From Nocardia carnea (GTDB lineage: Bacteria > Actinomycetota > Actinomycetes > Mycobacteriales > Mycobacteriaceae), in NCBI RefSeq assembly GCF_029869215.1, contig NZ_JARWPM010000243.1:1-40774 (forward strand): a stretch of DNA of 40,774 nt, written 5' to 3'. The stretch's first letter is position 1. Each line of letters starts with the position of its first letter. Shown here piece after piece: positions 12,052 through 35,720 of this stretch. A program made the position numbers and the translations under genes. A model generated the notes under the pieces. The model was not told the origin of the DNA, did no database searches, and saw only the letters and a list, made by a program, of their open reading frames with translations.

Positions 12052-12746
12052 GATGCTCCCTCCGCGGCGATGCGCTGCACCACCGGCATTAGATCCTCAG
12101 CGAGTAAGGCGCGCAGAAACACCGCCGCCACCCGGTGATCCCGATCCAGCACCACCGTGCTGGGAATGACACTGGTCGGAATGCCACCGAGCGCCAGCAA
12201 TGTGCGCATGGGCGGGTCGAAAATCGACGGATAACCGACGTGGTTATCGATAACGAAATCGCGTGCTTTGTCCTGCTGATCCTTGACATTGATCCCGAGG
12301 AAAGCGACCCCGAGATCCTTTGTCTGTTCGTAGACCTGTTCGAGCGCGGGCGCTTCGCCGCGGCACGGACCGCACCACTGCGCCCACAGATTGATGACGA
12401 CGACCTGGCCCGGGAAATCGTCCACCGAGACGGTTTCACCGTCATCGGACATCAGATCCGGACCGGAAAGCTCCCCGATGGTCCCGCGAGTGGACGGGGG
12501 ATCGTAGAAAATATCGGTCTGTCCACCGGGCGATACGAATTCGAACGTACCGCCGCCCGTGGCGACCGCGTCGGTACCGGTCGAACACCCGGCGACCGCG
12601 GCCAGGCACAGCAGCGCCGCGAGCACCGGCACCAGCCGGCCCCGAACCGCCGAGGCGAACCCCTTACCCATGCTGTATCCATCGCGCATGAGCGGGGGCC
12701 CTGCGTGGGGACGCTCCGCTACCGCCTCCGGGCCTGACCCGCTCAT
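12048..12746 (-). CDS. TlpA/ResA-like thioredoxin-fold lipoprotein
   Basis: A thiol-disulfide reductase that acts outside the membrane in cytochrome c maturation, receiving electrons from CcdA. Visible: hydrophobic LVPVLAALLCLAAVAGC with a lipobox (VAGC, lipidated Cys), then INLWAQWCGPCRGEAPALE with the WCxxC active site, and GGIPTSVIPSTVVLD with the cis-proline loop. The longest frame (232 residues) begins at ATG 12746, but the first ~25 residues are encoded by a palindromic repeat and give an overlong signal region; ATG 12689 or 12671 may be the real start. The 12746 start would make an ATGA overlap with the phosphatase gene. Confidence 0.85.
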   Translation of the reverse strand: MSGSGPEAVAERPHAGPPLMRDGYSMGKGFASAVRGRLVPVLAALLCLAAVAGCSTGTDAVATGGGTFEFVSPGGQTDIFYDPPSTRGTIGELSGPDLMSDDGETVSVDDFPGQVVVINLWAQWCGPCRGEAPALEQVYEQTKDLGVAFLGINVKDQQDKARDFVIDNHVGYPSIFDPPMRTLLALGGIPTSVIPSTVVLDRDHRVAAVFLRALLAEDLMPVVQRIAAEGAS

Positions 12747-12750
12747 GCGC
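12684..12750 (-). repeat. Palindromic repeat, copy 1 (inside tlpA start / phosphatase stop)
   Basis: A single copy with perfect 13-bp arms: GCGCATGAGCGGG at 12684-12696 and its complement at 12738-12750. The core reads GGAGGCGGTAGCGGAGCG on the minus strand. It supplies the TGA stop of the phosphatase gene and the ATG of the longest tlpA frame (ATGA). The sixth base of GAGCGx is G, paired with C. Confidence 0.85.
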
Positions 12751-13558
12751 CGTGCACCGTCGGATCCGATCCGCCCGCGGGCTCGGAGTAGACGATATCG
12801 ACCAAGGTGTCACCCCGGTAGACGAGCGAGGTCAGCGACGCCAGACCGCACTGGCGGCTGCGCGGATCGTGCCACAGGCGCTGGCCCTGCAGGAACCGGC
12901 GCAGCGTCCAGACAGGCAGCTGATGTGACACCAGCACCGCTTCGCGGCCGGTGGCCTCCACCCGCGCCTTGTTCACGGCGGCGAGCATCCGGTGCGCGAT
13001 CTGCAGGTACGGTTCGCCCCACGACGGGGTGAACGGATCGCGCAGTTTCCACCAGTGCCGGGGTTTGCGCAGGGCCCCGTCGCCGACCGATACCCGTAGG
13101 CCCTCGAAGGTGTTACCGGCCTCGATGAGGTTCTCGTCGGTGCGCACGGCGAGGCCGTGCCGGCCCGCGATCGGTTCCGCCGTCTCCTGCGCCCGCTGCA
13201 GCGGAGAGGCGATCACCACGGCGATATCGTGATCGGCCAGTGCCCGCGCGACGGCGCCCGCCTGCGCGCGCCCGGCGACGGACAATCCGAAACCCGGCAG
13301 CCGCCCGTACAGGATGCCGCGCGGATTGTGCACCTCGCCGTGGCGCAGTACATGCACGATGGTTTCCACCGATTCGGGGTCGGCGGCACCGGGTGAGGGC
13401 GGTTCGGCGGCGATACTGCCCGCGGTACCGGCCGTAGCGGCGAGGTCGTCGGCGTCCCCGTGTCCGGCGGGACTGTGCTCGGGAGCGGTACCCGCCGTGG
13501 CACTCCCGGTTTCGGTGCCGACCGTGGGGGCGTCGTTGTCCGGGTCGGGGCGGCTCAC
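12743..13558 (-). CDS. Histidine phosphatase (phosphoglycerate mutase-like) protein
   Basis: A 271-residue protein. About 60 N-terminal residues are disordered (rich in T, A, G, D and P); the catalytic domain starts at [20 protein letters not shown] with the RHG phosphohistidine motif, then [14 protein letters not shown], the conserved E region ([11 protein letters not shown]) and [10 protein letters not shown] with the second catalytic His. This is the branch-1 histidine phosphatase superfamily; the substrate is not predictable and it is unlikely to be glycolytic. It corresponds in position to the phosphatase after hemL in mycobacteria. GTG 13558 overlaps the hemL stop by GTGA. Confidence 0.85.
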
Positions 13559-14889
13559 GGCTGGCTTCCTTCTGGTGGCGCGCCGGCCGCCGCGGCCGCG
13601 GCGGCGGGTAGCGCGGCGGCTATCCGCTCGAACGCGTCGTCGTCGAGCGCCGCGGAGACGAACCAGGCCTCGAAGGCGCTGGGCGGGGCGTATACCCCGC
13701 CGTCGAGCAGCCCGTGGAAGAAGGCCGGATAACGCCAGGTCTGGCTCGCCTTGGCGGCGGCGTAGTCGAGTACCGGGGATTCGGCGAAGAACACGCTCAC
13801 CATATTGCCCGCGAACTGCACCTGGTGCGCGACCCCCGCGCCGGTGAGCGCTTCGGTGAGCAGAATGCCCAGCCGTTCACTGTTCCGGTTCAGGGCTGCG
13901 TACACCTGTTTGTCGGCGGCGCGCAGCGTGGCCAGGCCCGCCGCCACCGCCACCGGATTCCCGGACAAGGTGCCGGCCTGGTAGACGGGGCCGAGCGGGG
14001 CGAGCCGGTCCATCACATCGGCCCGGCCGCCGAACGCCGCCGCGGGCAGTCCGCCGCTCATCACCTTCCCGTAGGTGTAGAGATCGGCGGCCACCGATTC
14101 GATTCCGTACCAGCCGGCGCTGCTCACCCGGAACCCGGTCATCACCTCGTCCATGATGAGCAGCGCGCCGTGGTCGGAGGTGATCCGGCGCAGCCCGGCG
14201 TTGAAATCGGGCAGCGGCGCCACCGCACCCATGTTCCCGGCGGCGGCCTCGGTGATCACGGCCGCGATCTCGTCCGGATGCTGTTCGAAGGCCGCGCGGA
14301 CGGCGTCCAGGTCGTTGTACGGGAGAACGATCGTATCGGCGGCCTGCGCACCGGTGACCCCGGGCGAAGTAGGTAGCCCGAACGTTGCGACCCCGGAGCC
14401 CGCGTCCGCCAGCAGCGCATCGACATGGCCGTGATAGCAGCCCGCGAATTTGATGATCTTGGTGCGACCGGTGTAGCCGCGCGCCAGGCGCACCGCGCTC
14501 ATGGTCGCCTCGGTACCGGAATTGACCAGCCGCACCTTCTGCACCGGCGCGACCCGCTCCACGATCAACTCGGCGAGTTCCACCTCGGCGGCTGTCGGCG
14601 CGCCGAACGAGAGCCCGTCCCCGGCGACCTTGCGTACCGCCTCGACCACCGCGGGATGCGCGTGCCCGAGGATCATCGGTCCCCAGGAGCACACCAGATC
14701 GACGTAGTCGTTACCGTCCGCGTCGACCAGATGGCAGCCCCGGGCCGAGGAGATGAACCGCGGCGTACCCCCCACCGAGCCGAAGGCCCGCACGGGGGAA
14801 TTGACCCCACCGGGAACTACCGCTTCGGCTCGCTGGAAAAGCTGACTGGAGGCCGGCACCGCCGTACCGGCCACGCGCAGAGAACTCAC
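13555..14889 (-). CDS. hemL: Glutamate-1-semialdehyde 2,1-aminomutase
   Basis: A 444-residue PLP enzyme converting glutamate-1-semialdehyde to 5-aminolevulinate, the second step of the C5 tetrapyrrole route (hemA is in this window too). Motifs: [18 protein letters not shown] at the N-terminus, [17 protein letters not shown] for phosphate binding, [14 protein letters not shown] with the PLP-pyridine Asp, and [16 protein letters not shown] with the Schiff-base Lys. GTG 14889 gives the MSSLRV-type start; GGAGG lies only two bases before it, so the exact start is uncertain. First gene of the overlapping hemL-to-ccsB chain. Confidence 0.95.
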
Positions 14890-15073
14890 GGCCTCCAGTT
14901 TGGCAGCCTGCCCGCACGGCGTCGACGACAGGGTGCGGCATCGGTGACGCACACCGCCACCGCGGCAAATCACACAGCACTTGCCGTGCCAAATACACCA
15001 GGCGTTCGCCGTGAGTGCGTACTGTTCTGTTCCGTCGTAACAATTGCCCGAATCACCGGCCGGGGAGGTCGTT

Positions 15074-15469
15074 TTGCGAATTGGCATCAGTGGTGCGGCG
15101 CTGGCAGTGGCCTCGGTCGCGTGCGGCGTCCTGGCGAGCAGCCTCGGCGCGGGTACGGCCGCGGCCGCCGAACCGGTCGTGGACACCGAGAACGCCCGCG
15201 CTGGGCTGCGGCTGAACCAGGCCGAAACCGCGGCACTGGCCGCGGGCCCGGTCCCGGCGCTCGTCGACCAGATCGTTCCGGCATCCCGGATCGGCGCGGG
15301 CCTCGACAGCGATACCCGCCTCTACCGCGACGAGAACGGTGGCGTGCACGCCTCACTGCGCCAGGTGATGCTGGAATCGGTCGACAACAACGGTTCGGTC
15401 ATCGTGTTCGTGCACGTTCCGGGCGCCCCGCACGGCCGCGTGTTCGATATCTACCAGCAGTGGGGCTGA
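15074..15469 (+). CDS. Secreted hypothetical protein
   Basis: A 131-residue protein from TTG 15074, which follows GGGGAGG by about 5 nt. A signal peptide ([20 protein letters not shown], then GTAAAAE) with an AxA-type cleavage site predicts export. The mature ~100 residues contain [21 protein letters not shown] and [14 protein letters not shown], with no cysteine. It looks like one of the many short secreted proteins of mycolic-acid actinomycetes; no function is assigned. It is divergent from hemL. Confidence 0.75.
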
Positions 15470-15533
15470 CCCGGGCCGATCTGCCGAGGTGACGGCCGGC
15501 AGGTATCACCGGCACGCCGCCCCGCCCGGCCCC

Positions 15534-15776
15534 TCATGCCCTCCTGCGGCGCAGCAGCCGGGCGGCCGCATCGGTGAGAGCCAGCCCGGCGCCGGTGACC
15601 AGCAACATCGCCAGGAACAACCATGGGGCGACGTAGCGGGTCGCGGTGTAAGCCGGATAGTCCCCGGTCGCCGGGAGATCGGTGGTCTGCACGCCCAGCG
15701 CCCAGCACAGGGCTGCCAGTCCGGCCGCGACAACCGCCACCGCGATATCGACGGATACGACGAGCGAACGGTTCAC
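15534..15776 (-). CDS. Small two-helix membrane protein
   Basis: An 80-residue protein with two membrane helices (VSVDIAVAVVAAGLAALCWALG and VAPWLFLAMLLVTGAGLALT) separated by a polar loop with DLPATGDYPAYTATRY, and a basic RLLRRRRA tail inside. GTG 15776 is preferred because GAGGAG lies 5 nt upstream; ATG 15788 is the alternative. No known family was recognised. Confidence 0.7.
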   Translation of the reverse strand: MNRSLVVSVDIAVAVVAAGLAALCWALGVQTTDLPATGDYPAYTATRYVAPWLFLAMLLVTGAGLALTDAAARLLRRRRA

Positions 15777-15946
15777 AGGTCTCCTCATCTCTGCGGCGGC
15801 CGGAGCGGCGATCCCGGCGGGCATTCGGTCAGCGGGAAATTTTCGCCTGCACACGATGCTGCCCGCGCGGAATCGGATTGGCAATCAGCCTTGACGAGCC
15901 GTGTCGCCGAAACACGAACCACGGCACACCCTGGTGACCGGCTCGC

Positions 15947-16444
15947 TCATGCTGTCCCGCCCGTGCCACCGGACCGTGCGATCGCCTCGGTCAGCGCAGC
16001 CCGCAAGGCGCGATGATCCTTCGCCCAGGTACGCACCAGCTCGCCGTCGGTACGCCGGAGGCCGATGGCGGTACGCCGCCGCGGAACCCCGGTCAGCTCG
16101 CCGAGCGCGCGGCCGTCCTCCCAGGGGTCGTCCGCATCGGCCGGAAGGACGGCGGCGATGGACCGGACCGGGGTGGTCTCCGCACCGTTGCGCAGGAAAT
16201 CCGCGGTGAGTTCCACGCTCACATGCGTCCGTGCCGCATACACCTGGAGTACACCGAAACCGGTGATCAGCGCCGCGCAGAACAGCAGGGCGAACCAGTG
16301 CGGGGTGACGCCGGCGGCGAGTTCGGCGGCCAGTAGCAGCAGACAGATCAGCGGGCCGTACGCCACCGCCCGCCAGCGCGCGCCGGGCTCGGCGAACAGC
16401 ACCTCTGCGGAATCGACGGCGGTGGTGTCGGACCGATCAGGCAT
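15947..16444 (-). CDS. DUF3093-like membrane protein
   Basis: A 165-residue protein with two close membrane helices (about residues 28-46 and 50-68: PLICLLLLAAELAAG and WFALLFCAALITGFGVLQV), then a soluble beta-rich C-terminal domain (VSVELTADFLRNGAETTPV..., ending in an RALRAALTEA helix). This helical hairpin plus PH-like tail resembles DUF3093 proteins of actinobacteria, which have no assigned role; the match is by architecture only. It begins at ATG 16444 and a 39-residue membrane protein lies just upstream. Confidence 0.65.
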   Translation of the reverse strand: MPDRSDTTAVDSAEVLFAEPGARWRAVAYGPLICLLLLAAELAAGVTPHWFALLFCAALITGFGVLQVYAARTHVSVELTADFLRNGAETTPVRSIAAVLPADADDPWEDGRALGELTGVPRRRTAIGLRRTDGELVRTWAKDHRALRAALTEAIARSGGTGGTA

Positions 16445-16478
16445 ACGCGCGGGTACCGGAAGCGGAAACCACCTCGGC

Positions 16479-16598
16479 TCAGCCGACGATGCTGGGGATC
16501 AGCAGAACCGCGACCGTGAGCACACCGAACAGGATCAACAGACTCAAAACGAGCATATCCCGCCGGATACTCTGTGGCTGCTGGATAACCACTCGCAT
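16479..16598 (-). CDS. 39-residue single-pass membrane peptide
   Basis: A short gene starting at ATG 16598, preceded by GGAGGC with a 4-nt gap. The peptide is MRVVIQQPQSIRRD followed by a 25-residue hydrophobic helix (MLVLSLLILFGVLTVAVLLI) and PSIVG at the end. The basic N-terminus predicts an N-in orientation. It is easily missed because of its size. The next gene (DUF3093-like) starts 35 nt downstream on the same strand, so they may be co-transcribed. Function unknown. Confidence 0.65.
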   Translation of the reverse strand: MRVVIQQPQSIRRDMLVLSLLILFGVLTVAVLLIPSIVG

Positions 16599-16850
16599 CG
16601 TTGCCTCCGATCCCCGGAAAACCGGCCCCGGGATTTCGCCCTACTGGAGGGTTACCCGTGGCCACCGGTTCGCATGTCCTCTGTGACAGCCCTCACCATA
16701 CATGCCGGAATACGCGGAACAAACTCAACGTTCGTCCTGAGGATGCGCGGCCGACGGCGAGTCGGTATCAACGCGCAGGTCAGAACTCGGGACAGCGAAA
16801 TCGGCGCCGTAGCGGAGTGCGATCCGGCCGGGCCGCGCGACGGCAGATCC

Positions 16851-17342
16851 TCACGGCTTTCCCGGCCCGCGGGGCGCGAACCACTGCGCGGCCTCCGGCC
16901 GCAGGCACAGATAGACAGCCCCACCCGCGAGCACCGCCTGCACGATGGAAATCCCGCCGGACACCACGGTGCCGGCGCCTTCCACGGCACCGATGGAGAA
17001 CAGTGCGGCCACGCCCATGATCACCAGCCAGATCCCGGCGAAGGTCAGCAGCGTACGCGCCCACACCTTGCCCTTGCCGAGCTGATGGACCACCAGTACG
17101 CCCAGCGCGGCGATCAGCGAGCCGAAAACCGCCCCGAGCACCGCGCCCACCAGCACCAGCAGATCGATCGTCGCCGGAGCGAGCTGCGGATCGGCGGCCT
17201 GCATCCGCTCCCGGAACTCGGCGCCGAACCGCTCCCGGTTCAGCAGCGTATCGGCCAGCGAGACGAACAGCCGGACAACTCCCAGGGCGATGACGCCCCA
17301 CCACAATTGCCGCGCGGTGACGATATCCGCGGGCGGCTTCAC
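16851..17342 (-). CDS. Four-TM membrane protein downstream of hemB
   Basis: A 163-residue protein with four hydrophobic helices ([76 protein letters not shown]) and a conserved-looking charged loop after helix 1 ([15 protein letters not shown]). GTG 17342 overlaps the hemB stop by GTGA, so it is translated from the hemB message. Such proteins follow hemB in related genomes, but a link to heme synthesis is only positional. Confidence 0.8.
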
Positions 17343-18316
17343 CGTAACCAGTGTGCCGCCTCCGTCGCCCAATAGGTGAGCACGATATCCGCGCCGGCGC
17401 GGCGGATACCGGTCAGCGATTCCAGTACGGCGGCTTCCCGGTCGATCCAGCCGCGTTCGGCGGCCGCGGTGATCATCGAATACTCCCCGGAGATCTGGTA
17501 GGCGGCGACCGGCACCGGCGACCGGTCGGCCACCTCGCGCAGGATGTCGAGATAGGCCATGGCCGGTTTGACCATCACGATATCCGCGCCCTGTTCCAGA
17601 TCCAGGTCCAGCTCGTACAGGGACTCCCGCCGGTTCGCGGCGTCTTGCTGATAGGTCCGCCGATCGCCCTGCAGGGACGAGGCCACCGCCTCCCGGAACG
17701 GGCCGTAGAACGCCGACGCGTACTTCGCCGCATAGGCCAGGATGGCGGTATCGGTTCTGCCGGCCTCGTCCAGCGCCGCGCGGATCGCCCCGACCTGGCC
17801 GTCCATCATCCCGCTCGTCCCGAGCAGATCGGCCCCGGCCTCGGCCTGTGCCAGCGCCATGTCCACATAGCGCAGCAGGGTGGCGTCGTTGTCCACCGCG
17901 CCCGCGGCGTCGAGCACCCCGCAATGCCCGTGATCGGTGAATTCGTCCAGGCAGGTATCGGCCATCACCACGGTCGCATCGCCGACCTCCGCGGCCAGCG
18001 CCCGCAGCCCCCGGTTGAGAATGCCCTCGGGATCGGCCGCCTGGCTACCCTCCGGGTCCTTGTCCTCGGGTTTGGGCACCCCGAACAACATCAACCCGCC
18101 GACCCCTGCCGCCACCGCCTCGGCCGCGGCCTTACGCAGCGAATCCAGCGAATGCTGGAAAACACCCGGCATGGAACCGATCTCGCGCGGTTCGGACAGC
18201 CCGTCCGCCACGAACATCGGCAACACCAGATGCCGCGGCTCCAGACTGGTCTCGGCCACCAGCCGCCGCAACGCCGGCGTACGCCGCAACCGCCGCGGAC
18301 GCTCGATCCCACTCAT
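17339..18316 (-). CDS. hemB: Delta-aminolevulinic acid dehydratase (porphobilinogen synthase)
   Basis: A 325-residue enzyme that joins two 5-aminolevulinates to porphobilinogen. Motifs: [34 protein letters not shown] (metal region), [32 protein letters not shown] (first active-site Lys) and [13 protein letters not shown] (Schiff-base Lys). In the metal loop the classical zinc triplet C-x-C...C reads C-x-D...C, so the middle cysteine is Asp: a hybrid between Zn-type and Mg-type enzymes. A -10 box seven bases before ATG 18316 gives hemB its own leaderless start in addition to read-through from hemD. Confidence 0.95.
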
Positions 18317-18323
18317 ACGGTCG

Positions 18324-18329
18324 AGTCTA
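18324..18329 (-). promoter_or_regulatory. -10 box (TAGACT) of leaderless hemB
   Basis: TAGACT on the minus strand, then seven bases (CGACCGT), then ATG 18316. It lies in the 65-nt gap between hemD and hemB, so hemB has a likely internal promoter. Confidence 0.55.
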
Positions 18330-18381
18330 GGTGCGCGACGCCACCGGCGAACCCGCGGGTGCTCCCGACCTCCCGCCGAAC

Positions 18382-19944
18382 TCAGCGGCTGCGGCGGCTC
18401 TTCTTGCGGGGCGGGGGCAGGAGGCCTTCGGCGCGGAGGCGGGCGGCGTGTTCGGCCAGGGCTTCCACGAGGGGGCCGACCTGGGCGACCTCCGGCTGGA
18501 CGTCGACGCGCAGGCCGAATTCCACGGCGGTTTCCGCGGTTTTCGGGCCGATGCAGGCCACGATCGTGCGGGCGTGCGGTTTGCCGGCGATACCCACCAG
18601 GTTGCGGACCGTGGAGCTGGAGGTGAACAGGACCGCGTCGAAACCACCGGTCTTGATCATCTCGCGGGTCTCCGCGGGCGGCGGGGAGGCGCGCACCGTG
18701 CGGTAGGCCGTGACATCGTCGATTTCCCAGCCGCGTTCGCGCAGACCCTCCGCGAGCGTTTCGGTCGCGATATCGGCGCGCGGCAACAGCACCCGGTTCA
18801 CCGGGTCGAAAACATCGTCGTAGGGCGGGAAATCGGCGAGCAGGCCGAGCGAGGACTGTTCCCCACTGGGCAGCAGTTCGGGGTTGATACCGAAGGAGCG
18901 CACCTTCTCGGCGGTGGCCTCACCGACGCAGGCGATCTTGACCCCGGAGAAGGCCCGGGCGTCCAAACCGAATTCGGCGAATTTCTCCCACACCGCGCGT
19001 ACGGCGTTGGTGGAGGTGAACACCACCCACTGGTAGCGGCCGTCCACCAGGCCCTTGACCGCGCGTTCCATCTGCGCGGGGCTGCGCGGCGGCTCGACCG
19101 CGATGGTGGGGACTTCCTTCGGGATGGCGCCGTGGGTGACGAGGCGTTCGCTCATCTCGCCGGCCTGATCCTTGGTGCGCGGGACCAGTACGGTCCAGCC
19201 GTAGAGTGCCCGCGATTCCCACCACGACATCTTCGACCGCTGCGCGACCGCCTTGCCGATGGTTACGACCAGTGGTCCGACCAGTTCGGAGGCGGTGCTG
19301 TTCAGCGTGGCCAGGGTGGCCTCGATCGTGCGCTGCTGGCGGGTGGTGCCGCGCACGGTCACCGCGACCGGGGTCTGCGGAGCCATCCCGTGCTCCACCA
19401 GCGCGCTCGCGGTTTCGGCCAGATGGCCGGAGGTCGCGTGCAGGACCAGCGGGCCGGGCGCCGCGGCCAGCGCCGGCCAGTCGACCTCACCGCGCACATC
19501 GGCCTCGGTATGCCCGGAGCCGAGCGCGATCCCCGCGTAACTGGGCACCGCCGACCCGGACGGCAGCCCCGGCAGCACCTCGAACACGATATGTGAGCGG
19601 GTGACCGTGGTGACCTCGGCGATCACCGCGTCGGTGGTGAGCGGGTCACCGGAGACCACCCGCACCACATCGTGGCCGGCTTTCGCCTCGGCGATCAAGG
19701 TTTTGGCGACCTCGGCCGGATCGCCGAGGGCGGGCCGCACGTCCACGGGGCGCTCCCCGTCGGGGTCGGCTTCGACCTCGGTGCCGATCAGGGCGAGTAC
19801 TCCGGCGTCCACATCGGGGTCGGTGAACGCGAGGGTGGCCCGGCACAGCACTTCGCGGGATCGGGTGGTCAGCAATGCCGGGTCCCCCGGGCCCGACCCT
19901 ACGAACAGGATCCGCCCCGGATGCTTCTTGCTGGCTCGACTCAT
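18382..19944 (-). CDS. hemD: Fused uroporphyrinogen-III C-methyltransferase / uroporphyrinogen-III synthase
   Basis: A 520-residue two-domain protein. Residues 1 to ~255 are a SUMT/CobA-like methyltransferase domain ([41 protein letters not shown]). Residues ~260-505 are the HemD cyclase domain ([56 protein letters not shown]). It lacks the dehydrogenase part of CysG. HemD closes hydroxymethylbilane to uroporphyrinogen III; the methylase half would lead to siroheme or cobalamin, though its activity in this fusion is not evident from sequence. A basic tail ([11 protein letters not shown]) ends the protein. ATG overlaps hemC by ATGA. Confidence 0.92.
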
Positions 19945-22516: not shown

Positions 22517-23622
22517 GGTGTGACCACCGATCCCTTGCTGGTTGGCTCCGTTGCCGTATGCGAGGTCGTCTGGGCGGCCTGCGCCGCACAATGGGACAGG
22601 CTGTGCCTATTGGGCACGAGCGTGGGCCCTGCGTGGTCACGCTCCGCTACCGCCTCCGGGCCTGACACGCTCCTGCCGGGCCTATTGGGCACGAGCGTGG
22701 GCCCTGCGTGGTCACGCTCCGCTACCGCCTCCGGGCCTGACACGCTCCTGCCGGCGGGGCCCGGCGTCGGGTGCGCGGGCACCCGGCGGGCGATCCGGCC
22801 GGAACCGGTCAAGGGGTGGGCGGCCGATACGGCACTACCCGTTACAACGCCGGCGGGACCGGTTTCATTCGCCGCGGCGGACGCGGTCTCGGCCACATCC
22901 GCGGTGGCCGGGGCGTCGGCGGGCTCGTCGGTCTCGGCATTGCGGACCCGCTCGAAGGAGAGCATCTGCATCTCCACCGCCAGGTCCACCCGCCGCAACT
23001 CGACACCGGGCGGCGCGGTCAGCGGGCACAGCGCGAAACTCAGGATGGACTGCATACCCGCCGCCACCAGTTCGTCGCACACCTGCTGGGCGCTGTCGTC
23101 GGGTACCGCGATCACCGCGATGGTGGGCCGCAGCATTTCGATCCCGGCGGCCAGCTCCGCGGCATCGCGCACCCGCAGGCCCTCGACCTCGCGGCCGATC
23201 ACCTCGGGATCGTTGTCGAAGATCGCCACCACCGCGAACCCGCGGCGCCGGAAACCGCGGTAACCGACCAGCGCGCGACCCAGATTGCCCGCACCGACCA
23301 GCACTACCCGGTGCCCGCCGGACAGGCCGAGCACATCTTCGATCCGGGCCCGCAACCTGGCCACGTCGTAACCGACCCCCCGGACCCCGTTGGGGCCGAG
23401 GAAGGACAGATCCTTGCGGAGTTTCGCCGAATTGACACCCGCCGCGACAGCCAGTTCCTCACTGGATACGATGGCCACACCGTCATCGGTCAGCAGGGCC
23501 AGTACCCGGAGATAGGTGGCGAGGCGCGCCACCGTAGCCTGGGGGATGTCCTTCTGCGGTGGTCGAGTGGTGACATTGGGAGCATCGCCGGAGACGTCGC
23601 GCGCCTCATGCTGCTCTGTCAC
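22513..23622 (-). CDS. rex: Redox-sensing transcriptional repressor Rex, with repeat-derived C-terminal extension
   Basis: A 369-residue protein. Residues ~25-100 are the Rex winged HTH ([20 protein letters not shown], then [14 protein letters not shown]); [16 protein letters not shown] is the NAD(H)-binding Rossmann motif, and the conserved core ends near [14 protein letters not shown]. Rex releases DNA when NADH/NAD+ is high. About 120 further residues are disordered, and two 25-residue units of them are encoded by tandem copies of the palindromic repeat; normal Rex proteins stop near residue 250. GTG 23622 is preceded by GAGGAG at 8 nt. It heads the hemACD operon and has a Rex box in its promoter. 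Confidence 0.93.
22606..22755 (-). repeat. Palindromic repeat, two tandem copies inside rex
   Basis: Two nearly identical 75-bp units (22606-22680 and 22681-22755). On the minus strand each reads GGAGCGTGTCAGGCCC, the core GGAGGCGGTAGCGGAGCG, then GGGCCCACGCTC. The sixth base of GAGCGx is T, paired with A. Both units are translated in frame in rex as [20 protein letters not shown]. Confidence 0.85.
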
Positions 23623-25315: not shown

Positions 25316-25345
25316 CTCCGATCTGCGCGCCGACGTCCGGGTGCC

Positions 25346-27595: not shown

Positions 27596-27618
27596 GCTCT
27601 TCCGATGCGCGCTCGCGC

Positions 27619-27917: not shown

Positions 27918-27923
27918 CCGCCT

Positions 27924-28172: not shown

Positions 28173-28326
28173 CGCACCACTGACCTCCGGCACGTCCGCG
28201 CCGCCGGCTTCCCCACCGGCGGAACAGACACGCACGTGCTCCTTGAAGCTTAGCGGGACCAGTGGGATTACTGCGACGGGAGTGAGAAAACAGGTTCATA
28301 CGCTGGGAATCCTCCGTTCATTCCCG

Positions 28327-28473
28327 GCATGAGCGAGTCAGGCCCGGAGGCGGTAGCGCAGCGTCACCACGCAGGGCCCTCGCTCATGCCCCATCAACAC
28401 AGCATGAGCGAGTCAGGCCCGGAGGCGGTAGCGCAGCGTCACCACGCAGGGCCCTCGCTCATGCCCCATCAAC
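28327..28473 (+). repeat. Palindromic repeat, two tandem copies at the 3' end of proC
   Basis: Units at 28327-28401 and 28402-28473 are identical over 72 bp (period 75). Each has arms GCATGAGCGA and TCGCTCATGC around GGCCC/GGGCC and the core GGAGGCGGTAGCGCAGCG. The sixth base of GAGCGx is A, paired with T. The second copy supplies the proC TGA stop (28459-28461). Orientation is antisense to proC. The position would suit a transcription terminator or mRNA 3'-end structure. Confidence 0.9.
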
Positions 28474-29286
28474 GCTGGACGCGCCCTGTTCCGCGGAACG
28501 CTGTTTGGCCGCGTGCAGCGCCTCCAGGAAAGCCGACCGCAACCCCGACCGCTCGAGCTCGCGCAGTGCCGCCGCGGTCGTCCCGGCGGGTGAGGTGACC
28601 GCCGCCCGCAGATCCACCGCGCTCTGCCCCGATTCGGCCAGCATGGCCGCCGAGCCGAGCATGGTCTGGTTGACCAGCTGGGTGGCGATATCGCGGGTGA
28701 GCCCCAGCCCCACCCCCGCCTCGATCATGGCCTCCACGACGAGGAAGAAATAGGCGGGCCCGGAGCCGGATACCGCGGTCACCGCGTCCATCTGCCCTTC
28801 GGGCACCACGCACACCTGACCCACCGTGCTCAGCAGTTCGGTCACCAGGTCGAGTTGCTCGCGCTTGGCGTACCGGCCCGCGGCGAGCACACTCATTCCC
28901 TCGCCGACCAGCATCGGGGTATTCGGCATCACTCGCACCACCGGGAATCCGGCGGGGAGTTTGTTTTCCAGCCGGGTGGTCGGCACTCCCGCGGCCAGCG
29001 ATACCAGGATCTGGTCCCGCTCGCCCCCGAGGTCGGCCTTGCCGAGCTCGGTGAGCACCGCGTCCACATCCATCGGCTTGACCGCGACCACCAGCAGATC
29101 GGCACCCACCGCGGCGTCGGAGATCGTATCGGTGACCCGCACCCCGAACCGCCCCGAAATCAGTTCCGCCCGATCGGCGTGGGTTTCGACGACGACCAGA
29201 TCTTTGACGGCGCGCCCCGCCTCCAGGAGGCCGGCGATCAAGGCCTCACCGATCCGGCCGCCACCGATAACCGCAATACGTGTCAT
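28459..29286 (-). CDS. proC: Pyrroline-5-carboxylate reductase
   Basis: A 275-residue NAD(P)H enzyme making the last step of proline synthesis. RIAVIGGGRIGEALIAGLL is the Rossmann glycine motif; VVAVKPMDVDAVL, FPVVRVMPNTPMLVGEGMSV and AVSGSGPAYFFLVVEAMIEAG are all ProC hallmarks, and LVNQTMLGSAAML lies in the dimerisation region. Length matches the family. The last codons and stop (VDGA-TGA) are contributed by the adjacent palindromic repeat. ATG 29286 follows a -10-like GACAAT by six bases, suggesting leaderless expression. Confidence 0.95.
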   Translation of the reverse strand: MTRIAVIGGGRIGEALIAGLLEAGRAVKDLVVVETHADRAELISGRFGVRVTDTISDAAVGADLLVVAVKPMDVDAVLTELGKADLGGERDQILVSLAAGVPTTRLENKLPAGFPVVRVMPNTPMLVGEGMSVLAAGRYAKREQLDLVTELLSTVGQVCVVPEGQMDAVTAVSGSGPAYFFLVVEAMIEAGVGLGLTRDIATQLVNQTMLGSAAMLAESGQSAVDLRAAVTSPAGTTAAALRELERSGLRSAFLEALHAAKQRSAEQGASSVDGA

Positions 29287-29292
29287 GGGTTC

Positions 29293-29300
29293 ATTGTCTA
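29293..29300 (-). promoter_or_regulatory. -10 region (TAGACAAT) of proC
   Basis: TAGACAAT on the minus strand; its GACAAT part ends six bases before ATG 29286. No Shine-Dalgarno is present in GAACCC, so a leaderless start is likely. Confidence 0.45.
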
Positions 29301-29368
29301 CGCCCCCGCCCCCGGCGACGCGGTACGGGGTTGGCTCACGAAGCTCCCCGCAGGAAACACGCTGCTTC

Positions 29369-30271
29369 TCAGCGTTTGGGTGAGGGCAGGAGGGCGAGCT
29401 GGCGGCTCTGGGCGACCAGCGCGCCGGTGGAGTCGACGACTATCTGGTCGGAGTCGAACATACCGCCGCCCACTTCGTGGGTGGTGGCAATGATCCGCAG
29501 CCAGCCCGGAGCCGGGCGGCGGCGCAGGTAGGTTGTCATCTGGACCGTGGGCGACCAGCCGAAGTAGCCCAGGTTCGTGGGCACCGGCGGGCACATATCG
29601 GCGGCCATCATCGCGATATAGGACGCCGTCTCCGGGTCGGCCTGATCCTGGGGGCGCGGCCGCAGCCACATCCGCAGGCGGGGTTCACCGTGCTCGTTAT
29701 CGATGAAACGGGCCCATTCACGGTCCAGGAACGCATCCATACCGCGGGCCACGTGCACGACCCGGCCCATCGACGAACCCGGTTCGTAGCCGATGGCATC
29801 CGCGGCCGGTTCGACGGGCAGATCGGTGAGCGCGGGCGCGTACAGCGGTTCCCGGTCCGGGCCGTCGAGGTGCCCGAACGTGAACGCGGTCCGCACCAGC
29901 GGCCGGCCGCGCTGGATCAGGGTCACGTCCACCAGGCAGATCTGCCGGCCCACTTTGCGGATGGACACCTCATAGGTGACCTCGCCCGGCTCCGGGGCAC
30001 CCAGGAAGTCGGTGCTCCCGGACAGCGGCGCCATGCCGGACCGATCCGGTTCCACCGTGCGCAGCCAGCGTGTCGCGGCCGCGGCGGACCCCGCGACCAT
30101 CGTGCCACCGTGCACCTTCGGCCCGATGGTCCAGATCTCGTCGATGATGCCGCGATAACGCCCGGCGCCCGGTTCGTCGGCGGCGAGTTCGGTCAGCGCA
30201 CAGACCCGGCTGAACGGCGCCTCCGCACGCACCGCGTCTAGCTCGGTGGCGGGCTCCGTCTCCGTCGTCAT
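29369..30271 (-). CDS. Acyl-CoA thioesterase family protein (double hot-dog)
   Basis: A 300-residue protein with two hot-dog-like halves: KVHGGTMVAGSAAAATRWL and VSIRKVGRQICLVDVTLIQRG in the first, and TNLGYFGWSPTVQMTTYLRR and FDSDQIVVDSTGALVAQSRQ in the second. The SDQIVVD...G.LVAQSRQLALL ending is typical of TesB/4HBT-like actinobacterial thioesterases. The acyl substrate is unknown. ATG 30271 has AGGAG 5 nt upstream. Position corresponds to Rv0499. Confidence 0.8.
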   Translation of the reverse strand: MTTETEPATELDAVRAEAPFSRVCALTELAADEPGAGRYRGIIDEIWTIGPKVHGGTMVAGSAAAATRWLRTVEPDRSGMAPLSGSTDFLGAPEPGEVTYEVSIRKVGRQICLVDVTLIQRGRPLVRTAFTFGHLDGPDREPLYAPALTDLPVEPAADAIGYEPGSSMGRVVHVARGMDAFLDREWARFIDNEHGEPRLRMWLRPRPQDQADPETASYIAMMAADMCPPVPTNLGYFGWSPTVQMTTYLRRRPAPGWLRIIATTHEVGGGMFDSDQIVVDSTGALVAQSRQLALLPSPKR

Positions 30272-30433
30272 CACTACTCCTGTGCTTTCCGGCGCACCGC
30301 CAGCGAGCGGGCAACGCCACTTTCCTGGGGGACCAGCCTACGGGTGACCGCCCCGGGTGTGTGAACGCAGGACCGGCCCTGTCCCATTTCGCGGTGCCGC
30401 CCACACCTGTCTTGCCCAGCGCCGGCGCACCGA

Positions 30434-31321
30434 TCAACAGAGCTTGAGGTGGGTGCGGGCGAATTCCAGGGTGCGGGTGAGCATGGCGGCGCGGGCCGCG
30501 GTGGTGCGGGCTTCCTGGGTGTTGATCTCGGCGACCGCGTGGCCGGTGAAGCCGTTGCCGACGAGTGCGGCGCATACCTCGGCGCACGGCTGGGTGCCCT
30601 CGCCGGGGATCAAATGCTCGTCGTGGGCGGCGCCGCGGCCGTCGGCGAGGTGCAGGTGCACCAGGCCCGCACCCATCCGGTCGGCCAGTGCCAGGGCGTC
30701 GGTGCCGGCGGTGGCAGTATGGGAGAGGTCGAGTGTGTAGTGCCGGAATCCGGTGTCGGTGGGGTCGTAGGTGGGGCTGAAGGCCGTCAGGGCCCACCCC
30801 GGGCCGCCGCGGCGTTCCAGGCGCCGGATATCGCCGGAGCGGCGGCCGAACAACTTGTCGGCGCGCATCGGGAACATGTTCTCCACGGCCACCGCCACCG
30901 AGCTCCGCTGTTCCAGTTCCGCGACCTGTTCGGCGAACCCCTCGGCGTAGCGCCGCTGCCAGCGGAACGGCGGATGCACGACAACGGTGTCCGCGCCGAG
31001 TGTTTCCGCGCTGCGCACACTGCGGGCGAGTTTGGCGACCGGATCGGCCCCCCAGACCCGTTGCGAGATCAGCAGGCACGGCGCGTGCACCGCGAGGACC
31101 GGTACCGAGTATTTCCGGGCGTAACGGCGCACCGTATCGATGTTCTGGCTGGCCGGTTCGGCCCACACCATCAATTCGACCCCGTCGTAACCCAGTTCGG
31201 CCGCGTACCGGAAGGCTGCCTCGGTGTTCTGCGGGTAGACCGAGGCGGTGGAGAGACCGACCTTGATCCCCTGGCTGCGCCCACCGCCGGACGACCCGGC
31301 CGTGGGAGAGTTGCCTGTCAT
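30434..31321 (-). CDS. Sugar phosphate isomerase/epimerase-like TIM-barrel protein (AP endonuclease 2 fold)
   Basis: A 295-residue protein of the xylose isomerase-like TIM barrel superfamily. Seen: KVGLSTASVYPQNTEAAFRY, the conserved LGYDGVELMVW, LAVHAPCLL, TVVVHPPFRW, VAVENMFP, YTLDLSHTATAGTDALAL, LVHLHLADGRG and the metal-ligand Glu in AVAEINTQEA. These His, Glu and Asp residues at strand ends are the metal ligands of the fold. The natural substrate is unknown. Corresponds to mycobacterial Rv0498. It starts 12 nt after the proline-rich membrane gene stop, so they form one transcript. Confidence 0.85.
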   Translation of the reverse strand: MTGNSPTAGSSGGGRSQGIKVGLSTASVYPQNTEAAFRYAAELGYDGVELMVWAEPASQNIDTVRRYARKYSVPVLAVHAPCLLISQRVWGADPVAKLARSVRSAETLGADTVVVHPPFRWQRRYAEGFAEQVAELEQRSSVAVAVENMFPMRADKLFGRRSGDIRRLERRGGPGWALTAFSPTYDPTDTGFRHYTLDLSHTATAGTDALALADRMGAGLVHLHLADGRGAAHDEHLIPGEGTQPCAEVCAALVGNGFTGHAVAEINTQEARTTAARAAMLTRTLEFARTHLKLC

Positions 31322-31332
31322 CGCCGCCTCGT

Positions 31333-32997
31333 TCAGCCCGCACTGAGTAGGAATGCCAGCGGCCCCAATGTGACGAACACACCGACGACCACGGCGATCA
31401 CGGTACTGAGAATATCGTCGGTGCGCCGCAGTATCCGCACCAGCGCCACGAGCCCGAGGATCACCACCACGGCGAGCGCGAGCGCGGCCAGCGGTTGCAG
31501 CGCCCACAGCTGTTCGAAACCTTTGAACGCCAGCATGCCGGCGAGGGCGGCACCTAGACTCTGGGCGCCCAGCATGATCCACTGTTTACGCGGATCCGCC
31601 ACCTCTTCGCTGTCCCGTTTCCGGGATCCGGCGGCCCGGGACCGGAGGGCGGTGAACTTCTCGGTCGCCGCGCCGAGCCGACCGGTGAGCGCCGAATGGG
31701 CACGGCTGCTGCGGGGTTCGGCGTCGAGATCGTCGTCCTCCGGGACGGCGTAGATATCGGAATCCGGTTCGAATTCCCCCGTGTCGCTACCGTGTTCACG
31801 CCGCATGGGACCGGGCGCCGGCGGCATGGGACCGTGTACGTCTGTGGCGTACATATCGGTGTTGCGGAAACCGTCGTCCGGTATCTGCTCGGCCGGCGGC
31901 TCGGGGTAACCCGGTTCCGGCTTCCCGGCCGGGTGAGCGTTGCGGCCCCCGCGGGCCCCGCCGCGGTCGCTGTGGTCGAGCGGTGGGGCGTCGAGGTCGG
32001 GTGTGCCGGGCCCGAATCCCTTGCTCTGTTCCGCCAGGGACCACACAAAAGTGGCCTGGTCGGCGTTCGCTTGCCCGACGGCCGGTTCCGGCCAGGGCGC
32101 GGGATCGGGGAGCGGGCGCGACCCGCGCCGCCGGCGTTCCAGTGCGGGGCGCGGTTCACTGGCGGGCGCCGGAGCCGGCCACGCCTCGGTCGCGGGTGCC
32201 GGGGCCTGCCATGCCTCGGTCGCGGGTAGCGGTGGCCCCAGCCGCGGCGGCCCGCTTTCCGGGCCGGCCCGCTGCGGGCCCGGCTCCGGCCGCCCGAACT
32301 CCGGTCCTCCGAACTCGGGCGCCCCGGGCGGTGCCGGCGCGGGGAATGAGGCCGGGAAAGCGCCCGAACCGGCGGACCGCGGAGGCAATTCGTAGCCCGG
32401 GTGCGCTTCCGCCACCGGTTCCGCTGTCTCGGCGGCGGCCGCGGCTTCGGCGGCTTCGGCCGCACGCCGGCGCGCGGCCCGGCCACCACTGGGCAGCGGC
32501 GGGCCGGTTTCCCAGGGTTGGCTCGCCGGATCGGCAGCGGGGTACACCTCGGCGTCGTCGTCCGGATCGGCGCGGCGGCGCCGGCCACGCCGCGGCGCGC
32601 TGTCCTCGGCCGGGAACGATGCCGGTGCGTAGGGGTCCGGTGGGGCCGGACGGGCGGGGAAATCGTCCTGGGACGTATCGCCCGGGTACGGGGCCAGCGG
32701 GTTGTACACCGTGATCGGCCCGGACATCGGCGAGTGACTCGGCTCGGCCGAATAGTCTTGTTCCGCATAGCTTTGCGGGGCATAACCGGTATCCGCGGGA
32801 GCGTCGGCCGGCTCCTCTGCCGCATCGGGCGCCGCATGCGCCGAACCGCCCTCGACGGCCGGTAGATCACCGGTCAGTTCGGTGACCGAAACCCCGCGCC
32901 CACCGCGCCGCCTGCGCCCGCCGCCGCCGGATGTCGGCTGCGCCCCGTTGCGGGCCAGTAGTTCGGCCACCGACAGCTGATTGGAGTTCCTGCTCAT
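31333..32997 (-). CDS. Long proline-rich membrane protein (Rv0497-like)
   Basis: A 554-residue protein. It begins with the recognisable MSRNSNQLSVAELLARNG motif, continues as about 400 disordered residues rich in P, A, E, D and R, and ends with three hydrophobic helices (about residues 480-552, including ALALAVVVILGLVALVRIL and IAVVVGVFVTLGPLAFLL). The mycobacterial positional homologue is much shorter, so the disordered region is expanded here; part consists of near repeats (TEAWQAPAPA, TEAWPAPAPA near 32155-32225). ATG 32997 overlaps the Ppx/GppA stop by ATGA. Function unknown. Confidence 0.8.
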   Translation of the reverse strand: MSRNSNQLSVAELLARNGAQPTSGGGGRRRRGGRGVSVTELTGDLPAVEGGSAHAAPDAAEEPADAPADTGYAPQSYAEQDYSAEPSHSPMSGPITVYNPLAPYPGDTSQDDFPARPAPPDPYAPASFPAEDSAPRRGRRRRADPDDDAEVYPAADPASQPWETGPPLPSGGRAARRRAAEAAEAAAAAETAEPVAEAHPGYELPPRSAGSGAFPASFPAPAPPGAPEFGGPEFGRPEPGPQRAGPESGPPRLGPPLPATEAWQAPAPATEAWPAPAPASEPRPALERRRRGSRPLPDPAPWPEPAVGQANADQATFVWSLAEQSKGFGPGTPDLDAPPLDHSDRGGARGGRNAHPAGKPEPGYPEPPAEQIPDDGFRNTDMYATDVHGPMPPAPGPMRREHGSDTGEFEPDSDIYAVPEDDDLDAEPRSSRAHSALTGRLGAATEKFTALRSRAAGSRKRDSEEVADPRKQWIMLGAQSLGAALAGMLAFKGFEQLWALQPLAALALAVVVILGLVALVRILRRTDDILSTVIAVVVGVFVTLGPLAFLLSAG

Positions 32998-34022
32998 GAA
33001 GGCACCGTTTCGACCGGGCCCGCCGACGCAGCGCTACCGGCCGCCACACCGTTACCGGTCGCCGCGTTCGGAGCGTTCGTTGTCAGTGGTCCACCATCCA
33101 TATCGGTATCCAGTTTGCGCAGGATCAGCCCTTCGCGCAGCGCCCATGGACAAATTTCCAGCGTATCGAGGGAAAGCGCACGCATCGCGGCCTCGGCCAC
33201 CAGCGCCCCGGCCACCAATTGCTGCGACCGGTCGGCGCTGACCCCTTCGAGTTCCGCGCGGTCGGCGGCGGTCATCCGGGAGATGAACTGGATCAGCTGC
33301 CGCAGGCCCGAACTCGTCAGTGTCCGCCGCACCCGCGGCCCCGCTCCCGAGGGGGCGGCACCGGTCAACCGGGCGAGCGACCGGAACGTTTTGGAGGTAC
33401 CCACCGCCAGATCGGGTTTCCCGGCCTCGGTGAGCTGTTTGGCCGGGTCGACCAGTTCCGCGGTCAGCCAATCGCGCAGGATGCCGATGCGGCGCTTGCT
33501 CGGCGGATCCTCGGGCAGCCATTTGCGGGTCAACCGGCCGGCACCCAGCTGCAGCGACAAGGCGACATCGGGTTCCTCGTCGACACCGCTGCTCACCTCG
33601 AGCGAACCGCCGCCGATATCGAGATTGATGATCCGGCCGGCGCTCCAGCCGTACCAGCGGCGCACGGCGAGGAAGGTCAGCCGGGCCTCGTCGACTCCGG
33701 ACAGCACCCGCAGATCCACACCGGTTTCCGCGCGTACCCGCGCCAGCACCTCGTCGGAATTGGTCGCCTCGCGCACCGCCGAGGTGGCGAACGCCATGAG
33801 TTCCGCGCAGCCCGAGGCCGCGGCCAGATTAGCCAGATCGGCCACCGTATCGACGAGTTTCTGGGCCCCCTCGGCCGTGATCCGGCCGGCATCGTCCATG
33901 CTCTCGGAGAGCCGCAACGACTCTTTCGTGGAGCTCATCGGCATCGGATGACCGCCCCTGTGTGCGTCCACCACCAGTAGGTGAACGGTGTTGCTGCCGA
34001 CATCGAGGACACCTAGACGCAC
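32994..34022 (-). CDS. Ppx/GppA phosphatase family protein
   Basis: A 342-residue ASKHA-fold protein: VRLGVLDVGSNTVHLLVVD (phosphate 1), AFATSAVREATNSDEVL, GRIINLDIGGGSLEVSSG (phosphate 2, IDIGGGS type) and VGTSKTFRSLARLTG. These are exopolyphosphatase/pppGpp phosphohydrolase motifs; which activity it has is uncertain, and the mycobacterial homologue (Rv0496) is the closest relative by position. About 35 disordered C-terminal residues follow. GTG 34022 lies six bases after TACCGT, so it is likely leaderless and heads the transcript through 30434. Confidence 0.88.
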   Translation of the reverse strand: MRLGVLDVGSNTVHLLVVDAHRGGHPMPMSSTKESLRLSESMDDAGRITAEGAQKLVDTVADLANLAAASGCAELMAFATSAVREATNSDEVLARVRAETGVDLRVLSGVDEARLTFLAVRRWYGWSAGRIINLDIGGGSLEVSSGVDEEPDVALSLQLGAGRLTRKWLPEDPPSKRRIGILRDWLTAELVDPAKQLTEAGKPDLAVGTSKTFRSLARLTGAAPSGAGPRVRRTLTSSGLRQLIQFISRMTAADRAELEGVSADRSQQLVAGALVAEAAMRALSLDTLEICPWALREGLILRKLDTDMDGGPLTTNAPNAATGNGVAAGSAASAGPVETVPS

Positions 34023-34028
34023 ACGAAC

Positions 34029-34034
34029 ACGGTA
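34029..34034 (-). promoter_or_regulatory. -10 box (TACCGT) of the Ppx/GppA gene
   Basis: TACCGT on the minus strand, six bases (GTTCGT), then GTG 34022: leaderless geometry. Confidence 0.5.
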
Positions 34035-34073
34035 CTTGGTCCACCTGAACAGCAATCGACCTGGTCGTGGTGT

Positions 34074-34079
34074 TAGCGT
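34074..34079 (+). promoter_or_regulatory. -10 box (TAGCGT) of the DUF3109-like gene
   Basis: TAGCGT is followed by eight bases and GTG 34088. The two divergent -10 boxes in this 65-bp intergenic region are only ~40 bp apart, so the promoters may share regulatory DNA. Confidence 0.45.
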
Positions 34080-34087
34080 TAGGGGTT

Positions 34088-35008
34088 GTGACGTCTGGCG
34101 CAGCCACGAACGACTCCGCACCCGCTCCGACCGATCTTCCGATGCCGAAGATGCGGCCGAGCCAGGAAGTGCCGCTCGACTTCCCCCGGGAGTGGCTCGA
34201 GTTCGTGGATCCGGCCGACGACGAACATCTGATCGCGGCCGACCTCACCTGGTTGCTCTCCCATTGGACCTGCGTTTTCGGCACCCCCGCCTGTCAGGGC
34301 ATCCTCGCCGAACAGCCGGATGCCGGCTGCTGCACCCACGGCGCGTTCCTCTCCGACGACGACGATCGCAAACGCCTGCGCAAGGCAGTGAAATTGCTGA
34401 CCGCCGAGGACTGGCAGCTGATGGACGTGGCGCGCGACGACAAGGGCAAGATCAGTCGTAAGACGTATCTGGAAACCGATGATCTCGACGACGAGCCCGC
34501 CGAACGCACCCGCCGCTACAACGATGCCTGCATCTTCCTGAACCGGCCGGATTTCCCGGGCGGCGCCGGTTGCGCCCTGCACATCATGGCGATGCGCCGC
34601 GGCTTGGAGCCGCATACGGTCAAACCCGACGTCTGCTGGCAGCTCCCGATCCGCCGCACCCAGGAATACGTGACCCGGCCCGACGGCGTGGAGATCCTGC
34701 GCACGGTGATCACCGAATACGATCGGCGCGGCTGGGGACCGGGCGGTATCGACCTCGACTGGTACTGCTCGGGTTCGCCCGACGCGCATATCGGCGAGCG
34801 CCCGGTATGGCAGGCCTATCGCGCCGAGCTCATCGAATTGCTCGGCGAGCCCGCCTACCGGGAACTGGAACGGCAGCTGCGCCGCCGCGAAGGCACGCAA
34901 ATCGCCGCGGAGCATCCCGCGACCACCAAGGCTCGTCGCAAAGCCCGGGCGCGTCAGAACGGGTTTCCGGCCGAACCGGATAAAATTCTGGGACTCGAGC
35001 TGCGATAG
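34088..35008 (+). CDS. DUF3109-like cysteine-containing protein (Rv0495-type)
   Basis: A 306-residue soluble protein. Cysteines are clustered: [25 protein letters not shown], then [24 protein letters not shown] and [12 protein letters not shown]. The C-x7-C...CC...C...C spacing recalls DUF3109/YkgJ-type zinc or iron-sulfur proteins, so metal binding is likely. The protein ends with a basic region ([12 protein letters not shown]). It is divergent from the Ppx/GppA gene, exactly as Rv0495c is to Rv0496. Function unknown. Confidence 0.8.
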
Positions 35009-35033
35009 ATCCCACCTCACCGGAGGCCGCGCC

Positions 35034-35456
35034 ATGCGACTGCGCAGGACTCGCCGCACTCCCCGGCACCACCGGATCATCCCGCCCGCGATACCGCCGG
35101 TCCGCACCGGATCCCGGGCCCCGCATCCCCGCGCCGCCGGTGCCGGCGCCGTCCTCGCCGCGCTCCTGATCACCGCGGCGGCGCCGTGGGCGAACGCGCA
35201 ACCGGCCGCCGACCCGCACCAGTTCTCCGACCACACCGCCGACTTCGTACCGCTCGGGGCACCGAACGCACTCGCCGCCCGCGATTCCGGTAAAGAGCTC
35301 GTGCTCAGCCCGCACGGCACCCGGCGCAGTATCGTCTGCCGCGGCAACGGAACCACCGTGCCGCGCTACGACTGCAGCCAGGAGGACGGCCTCGGCTGGG
35401 CGCCCCTGCACCGCACCGATACCCCCGTCGGCGAGGTCTGGATCTACTTCCCCTGA
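35034..35456 (+). CDS. Secreted hypothetical protein
   Basis: A 140-residue protein from ATG 35034, with GGAGG 8 nt upstream. A long basic N-region (MRLRRTRRTPRHHR) leads into AGAVLAALLITAAAPWANAQ, a signal peptide with ANA cleavage. The mature ~85 residues contain two cysteines (SIVCRGNG and RYDCSQED) that may pair. The start might be internal because the N-region is long. No family recognised. It lies 25 nt after the DUF3109-like gene, so possibly one operon. Confidence 0.75.
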   Translation: MRLRRTRRTPRHHRIIPPAIPPVRTGSRAPHPRAAGAGAVLAALLITAAAPWANAQPAADPHQFSDHTADFVPLGAPNALAARDSGKELVLSPHGTRRSIVCRGNGTTVPRYDCSQEDGLGWAPLHRTDTPVGEVWIYFP

Positions 35457-35506
35457 GGCACCGCTGCAGTACCTACCGGCCTGGCGCAGGACGACCCTGT
35501 TCATCC

Positions 35507-35720
35507 CGCGCGAACGCGGGCCCTACGTGGTAAACGCTGCGCTACCGCGTCCGAGCCCGACGCGCTCAGGCAGTGCCCGACGAGCCCGAGCGCGGGCCCT
35601 ACGTGGTGACGCTGCGCTACCGCCTCCGGGCCTGACGCGCTCAGGCAGTGCCCAATGAGCCCGAGCGCGGGCCCCACGTGGTCACGCTGCGCTACCGCCT
35701 CCGGGCCCGACGCGCTCAGG
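35507..35720 (-). repeat. Palindromic repeat, three tandem copies at the 3' end of regX3
   Basis: Three units, with GCGGGCCC at 35516, 35592 and 35667 (periods 76 and 75). On the minus strand they read GAGCGCGTCAGGCCC, the core GGAGGCGGTAGCGCAGCG and GGGCCCGCGCTC. The sixth base of GAGCGx is C, paired with G. The copy furthest from regX3 is the most degraded. The nearest copy contains the regX3 TGA stop (35716-35718). This explains the whole gap between the secreted protein and regX3; no gene is seen here. Confidence 0.88.

Follow-up and report, generated by a model that had tools for sequence, protein, structure and literature searches.

Mycobacterial interspersed repetitive units (MIRUs) are described, in the passages of two papers that concern them, as short, dispersed tandem units of strain-variable copy number that lie at start codons beside an upstream stop (PMC12548453, PMC2734929); in the former they appear to be mobile, to insert at start codons and to couple with a -4 nt spacing. 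A passage of a third paper places MIRU repeats within the stem-loop family Myt-11 and mentions repeats in R. conorii genes (PMC2267715). Here we describe a 75-nt repeat found in a 40,774-nt stretch of Nocardia carnea DNA (contig NZ_JARWPM010000243.1 of assembly GCF_029869215.1, positions 1 to 40,774; hereafter the window), where it lies mostly on stop codons or stop-start overlaps. On balance, we interpret it as a MIRU-like, non-autonomous mobile element, with a transcript predicted to form a selected hairpin. To our knowledge, MIRUs are without dyad symmetry. Palindromic repeats inserted in frame in coding sequence are the Rickettsia palindromic elements (RPEs), and repetitive extragenic palindromes (REPs) carry GGAG or GTAG tetranucleotides at the hairpin foot.

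Fold, covariation and distribution of the repeat

The unit comprises a 65-nt hairpin and a linker that mostly ends in AGC, and it often occurs in tandem. Read along the strand of the core, it begins with an 11-bp outer stem (three bases followed by NTGAGCGx), a GTCA bulge and an inner GGCCC/GGGCC helix; next come a conserved apical region of 28 nt, the 3′ arm and the linker. A previous sequence-only reading had recognized the stem but underestimated its extent, which reaches three bases beyond NTGAGCG and includes the inner helix. Four copies from the window are predicted to fold better than their shuffles, with z from -2.65 to -4.54 (-1.94 to -4.37 for the other strand). By eye, GGAG and GTAG both fall within the apical core and neither at the hairpin foot. 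An additional apical pair between columns 29 and 41 is unsupported: among 217 copies, column 29 holds T 119 times and C 72 times, and column 41 holds A 198 times.

Covariation argues that the hairpin is maintained beyond the sequence, as the sequence-only reading had supposed from the window. We built a covariance model (R1) from 15 copies selected by their core and counted matches at E <= 0.01. Within the seed set of 15 copies, both sides vary in 6 of 16 pairs, with a score of 0.282 (0.107 shuffled). The proportion is 13 of 16 among 107 distinct copies sampled genus-wide, which score 0.301 (0.092 shuffled, 0 of 500 shuffles reaching the observed score, and at most 0.051 with slid partners), and 14 of 16 in a second set of 92 distinct copies, mainly from the N. 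carnea genome itself (0.269, 0.113 shuffled, at most 0.060 slid); the two larger alignments were fitted to the model and are biased towards its structure, and the shuffles ignore kinship among copies. Most stem substitutions in other copies are compensated and, together with the number of copies given below, leave the sequence-only reading unrefuted on its own terms. Of 255 copies, 217 have a length of 65 nt; their stem cells, excluding the outermost pair, comprise 2968 Watson-Crick, 120 G-U, 43 A-C and 124 other combinations.

The earlier suggestion left a choice between RNA and a cruciform, and on this point the mispairs are informative. Among 144 first copies of 65 nt, with positions 5 and 7 excluded as invariant letters of TGA, G-U exceeds A-C by 22:5 in the N. 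carnea genome and by 13:1 in the genus; five related strains show no excess (13:15), and the pooled ratio is 48:21 (p 0.0016, the copies not being independent). Transition rates at unpaired positions (C to T, G to A, A to G and T to C: 0.030, 0.020, 0.088 and 0.134, respectively) reveal no strand bias that would match the G-U excess. The excess in two of three sets thus points to an RNA hairpin, and the palindrome is likely to function as folded RNA. No Rfam family matches the window at gathering score; the best weak match, traJ-II at proC (E 0.11), scores 20 bits where the cut-off is 40, and we rejected membership in a known RNA family.

The repeat forms a large dispersed family, in agreement with what the sequence-only reading had proposed. 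The N. carnea genome (7.76 Mb, 460 contigs, rated 100% complete) contains 83 cores at <=2 mismatches, 39 of them exact, compared to 20 for a reversed control pattern. The R1 model finds 102 matches in this genome, arranged in 65 arrays of 1 to 4 copies; the 37 spacings within arrays are 75 nt in 27 cases, 76 in five, 74 in two, and 78, 93 and 150 in one each. Including N. carnea, 97 of 98 Nocardia genomes match. Nearest named relatives place the genome in this genus, its ProC being up to 95% identical to N. carnea. The single genome without a match (G063, 5.3 Mb) is among the smallest and may reflect loss or a lineage outside the spread. In a sample of 201 genomes of the family, 16 match, 15 from the same genus and one from another, so that 2 of 31 genera are represented; the mycobacterial-type genera of this sample have no match to the model, mycobacterial MIRU sequences themselves being outside the comparison. 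The genome outside Nocardia (G111, genus g15, 66% complete) has five matches, which could reflect transfer, misplacement or contamination. Viral contigs yield no exact match to the 26-base core pattern, the phage records searched have no match, and the only matching record of a plasmid collection is an N. farcinica replicon of 2.66 Mb in which no fewer than 33 places match and of which an inspected 8.2-kb stretch carries no annotated features; we rejected phage or plasmid carriage. A literature search restricted to open-licence papers returned no title describing such a repeat in Nocardia.

Position on stop codons and reading frame

To place the repeat relative to genes, we analyzed 47 of the 65 N. 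carnea arrays with their flanks, calling an upstream coding frame where at least 50 codons were open and GC was lowest at codon position 2. In 33 of these arrays the upstream gene terminates, in frame, at the TGA of the first copy, compared to 2 and 2 in the other frames; across the genus the overlap occurs in 55 of 77 first copies, compared to 4 and 10. Among the 33 overlapping arrays, 28 have a purine as the N of NTGA (23 ATGA, 5 GTGA) and five have C. The frame that starts at NTGA stays open into the downstream coding frame in 17 of the 28 ATGA or GTGA arrays and in none of the five CTGA arrays, so that 17 of the 33 stop-overlapping arrays are in frame with both neighbors. Because the unit is 75 nt long, the next ATG lies in the same frame and in these 17 arrays the element reads through into the following gene.

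At the right end, 20 of the 47 arrays finish with [AC]GC followed at once by NTGA, and in 16 of them N is the same as on the left. At C75:5461, the downstream start is ATG in relatives that have the site empty and AGG after the N. carnea array, as if the start codon had shifted into the element. Elsewhere (G000:C246:10948-11087), an array lies ahead of a native stop-start overlap, where it created a new upstream stop and left AAGGAGGG as a possible ribosome-binding site ahead of the next gene.

Copies in the window, empty sites and probable array growth

The eight core copies claimed by the sequence-only reading were recovered at the expected places by direct reading and by pattern search, seven exactly and one (35535-35552) with one mismatch. 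Their number stands; copies at one locus are tandem repeats with a spacing of 75, so the window offers four arm types rather than eight independent samples. These four arm types nevertheless comprise all four pairs at the variable stem position, as had been noted: G-C at 12685-12749, T-A at 22613-22752, A-T at 28326-28465 and C-G at 35583-35722. Cores with at most 3 mismatches occur nine times in the window (0.52 expected from shuffles); the ninth (19238-19255, 3 mismatches) is absent from the covariance model list and was not counted as a copy.

The single G-C copy (12685-12749, minus strand) sits at the junction of two minus-strand genes and is followed by the linker and an ATG at 12671. Its 5′ arm (CGCATGAGCG) includes the TGA (12743-12745) of the upstream phosphoglycerate-mutase-family gene (12743-13558), and the TlpA/ResA-like open reading frame (12048-12746) opens at the element's ATG and passes through the element, thereby gaining 25 codons before the next ATG. 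At rex, two minus-strand copies (22688-22752, then 22613-22677) lie in frame in the tail of the reading frame. The two plus-strand copies at proC (28326-28390 and 28401-28465) run opposite to the gene (28459-29286, minus strand), whose stop TGA (28459-28461) falls within a hairpin arm. Three minus-strand copies follow the RegX3-like response regulator gene (35716-36405, minus strand), which ends within the 5′ arm (AGCCTGAGCG) of the first (35658-35722) with its TGA at 35716-35718; the second copy (35583-35647) shares the arm pair, and the third (35507-35572) is degenerate, scoring 65 bits with the covariance model compared to 86-96 for the other window copies. Apart from the repeat, the contig end (40558-40774) folds into a snap-back inverted repeat with 108-nt arms, 83% complementary and 1 nt apart, around C-runs, which looks like an assembly or sequencing artefact.

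Related strains carry many of these junctions in an empty state. Among eight close relatives, the proC site is empty in all and the rex site in seven; N. flavorosea NBRC 108225 (L070) has one copy at rex where N. carnea has two. We compared the left flanks of 30 N. carnea arrays to five related strains and obtained at least 130 junctions for 29 arrays, a junction being called empty from gap length and lack of a model match, which takes in remnants and a few poorly aligned rows. Among the 130 matches listed, 73 junctions are empty, 39 filled and 18 other; 19 arrays contribute at least 54 rows in register with a TGA, and at least eight arrays have filled relatives as well as in-register empty ones. 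Clean empties among the matches listed include C323:26870 (4 of 4), C261:1017 (5 of 5) and C121:20598 (5 of 5); the TlpA site of the window is filled in three relatives and empty in two, and C185:4580 is filled in two and empty or remnant in three. Copy number at one locus varies among strains, both at rex and at C185:4580, where N. carnea has two copies, G292 a two-unit length and G289 one. This pattern of presence and absence makes it likely that the repeat spreads as a mobile element of very small size. At proC, N. panacis and N. australiensis have diverged arrays that belong to a related subfamily with other arm sequences, and N. panacis has them at the site of regX3 too (N. panacis, L098 10803-10943 and 4335-4548; N. 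australiensis, L113 10816-11007).

First and inner copies differ at the base of the stem. At position 1, three bases before NTGA, the pair is formed in 40 of 48 first copies of N. carnea (18.7 in shuffles, 0 of 4000 reaching the count) and in 5 of 35 inner copies (4.7). The relatives show the same difference (36 of 40 first copies, 16.5 in shuffles; 2 of 20 inner copies, 2.2), as does the genus (70 of 77, 48.3; 15 of 35, 11.2, p 0.04). Pairing at position -1 is near chance (19 of 48 in N. carnea, 12.7 expected, p 0.01; non-significant in the relatives and the genus). AGC precedes NTGA in 23 of the 35 inner copies of N. carnea. In the simplest reading, tandem copies arose after insertion and retained the 3′ arm of the first copy.

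Evidence on the source of the outer bases, element or host, is mixed. Among the matches listed, 19 loci have in-register empty relatives. Here the arm pairs with the N. carnea base of position 1 at 16 loci and with the empty-site base at eight (6.5 in shuffles, p 0.28); having no predictive value, the empty-site base does not support host templating of the arm as a general rule. Identity at position 1 is 0.52 between N. carnea and the empty sites compared to 0.77 among the latter, and it is also reduced at -2 and -3, suggesting that at part of the loci the outer bases probably came with the element. Position 4, the N of NTGA, tracks the host (13 of 19, 6.9 expected, p 0.0006). Individual loci differ: at C261:1017 GTC stands with GAC, and one empty relative also has GTC; at the C98:14449 site, CGG stands with CCG in four strains, and an empty relative has the same flank. 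The contrast between first and inner copies at position 1, and rare arms that fit rare flanks, could also mean that the 3′ arm guides the element to its target or copies it, pairing with or copying the last codon and the stop codon of the upstream gene upon insertion. We regard this as doubtful, given the failure of the empty-site base to predict the arm; if true, host bases become half of an RNA stem.

Competing explanations and known systems

If the repeat is a MIRU-like mobile element, insertion at NTGA would preserve termination of the upstream gene, and where N is A or G, the element's own ATG or GTG would open a frame that crosses the 25 codons of the unit and enters the next gene, which would keep translation coupled. 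Extra tandem copies would be added once the element is in place, by duplication of the NTGAGCG-to-AGC stretch, and the hairpin would act on the mRNA between the two genes, e.g. on re-initiation or decay. We infer transcription, the RNA role, the effect on coupling and the mode of movement from sequence comparisons. Several observations weigh against this reading. Besides the bias of the fitted alignments, 14 of the 47 arrays lack an upstream-stop overlap on the core strand, of which two (one being proC) fit on the other strand and 12 on neither; 11 of the 28 ATGA or GTGA arrays are out of frame with any downstream gene; and about 10 of the 37 spacings differ from 75 nt, where 74 or 76 would shift the frame. 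The balanced G-U and A-C counts in the five relatives either speak against an RNA hairpin or reflect mere decay of the copies.

The sequence-only reading had considered a structure-recognising mobilising enzyme of the REP type. The repeat would then belong with REPs and bacterial interspersed mosaic elements (BIMEs), lack an RNA function and depend on a hairpin-recognising Y1 transposase (REP-associated tyrosine transposase, RAYT) that needs the palindrome as single-stranded DNA. Short dispersed palindromes, hundreds of bases from the ends of genes, tandem copies and covarying arms are all compatible with such an origin, as are the GGAG and GTAG words of the conserved core. We nevertheless consider it unlikely: so far PF01797 (Y1 transposase) has no match in the N. 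carnea genome, with its 100% completeness in 460 contigs, whereas the same search was positive in 5 of 14 control genomes; the element targets stop codons of coding frames, not intergenic space; and G-U exceeds A-C in two of three sets, although folded single-stranded DNA could favor G-T too.

Two further explanations assign the repeat to the protein or to the transcript end. The unit might be kept for its peptide, as an in-frame 25-residue repeat added to N-termini or tails in the manner of RPEs, with the hairpin being secondary. The in-frame insertions in the rex tail and the TlpA-like gene, the 17 arrays in frame with both neighbors and the exact 75-nt spacing in 27 of 37 cases would all be expected; yet the most variable stem base occupies codon position 2, where the residue changes while the pair stays, and neither the CTGA arrays (0 of 5 in frame downstream) nor the reversed proC array gain such a peptide, which makes this explanation very unlikely. 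That the hairpin is a transcription terminator or mRNA 3′-end stabilizer behind genes, its position at stop codons merely following from the coding sequence, is highly improbable, even though a stable hairpin is predicted on both strands and CTGA arrays, among them the regX3-like and rpsT-side ones, are found at gene ends that have no coupled start. The hairpins of the window are not followed by a T-run, the overlap involves the stop codon itself and not the sequence behind it, and 17 of 33 arrays lie between genes that share one frame, where a terminator would cut the operon.

A genus-wide family that occupies stop-start overlaps, preserves the frame in most cases and has a covarying hairpin would connect the coupling of translation with small mobile repeats. 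Sister strains with filled or empty sites would provide natural experiments on the effect of a hairpin between coupled genes, and with their strain-variable copy number the arrays might serve as typing markers in Nocardia, comparable to MIRU-VNTR (variable-number tandem repeats) in mycobacteria. Gene finders may misplace start codons where a unit adds 25 codons.

Several known systems resemble the repeat in part. Like Rfam families, it has a covarying hairpin that can be described by a covariance model, although the window lacks a match at gathering score. With RPEs it shares a palindrome in frame within coding sequence, as in the rex tail, but it usually lies at a stop codon or a stop-start overlap and not in the gene body. 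REP/BIME elements with their RAYTs are likewise dispersed short palindromes whose paired arms change together; in contrast to them, the Nocardia repeat occupies stop codons of coding frames, and since no PF01797 match was found in its own genome, we do not file it there. The location of copies on stop codons, often on stop-start overlaps, which the sequence-only reading had missed, makes MIRUs the closer comparison. As far as the cited passages on MIRUs describe them, both are short dispersed tandem units of strain-variable copy number with a start codon overlapping the upstream stop; the internal reading frame of a MIRU, however, ends in a -4 overlap with the downstream start, whereas the 75-nt unit continues in frame. 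The repeat further differs in its strong covarying hairpin and in that it also occupies plain CTGA stops, where no start is present. Lacking the downstream -4 feature, and compared by description rather than by sequence, it is not filed as a MIRU, but MIRUs are the closest known kind to the Nocardia repeat.

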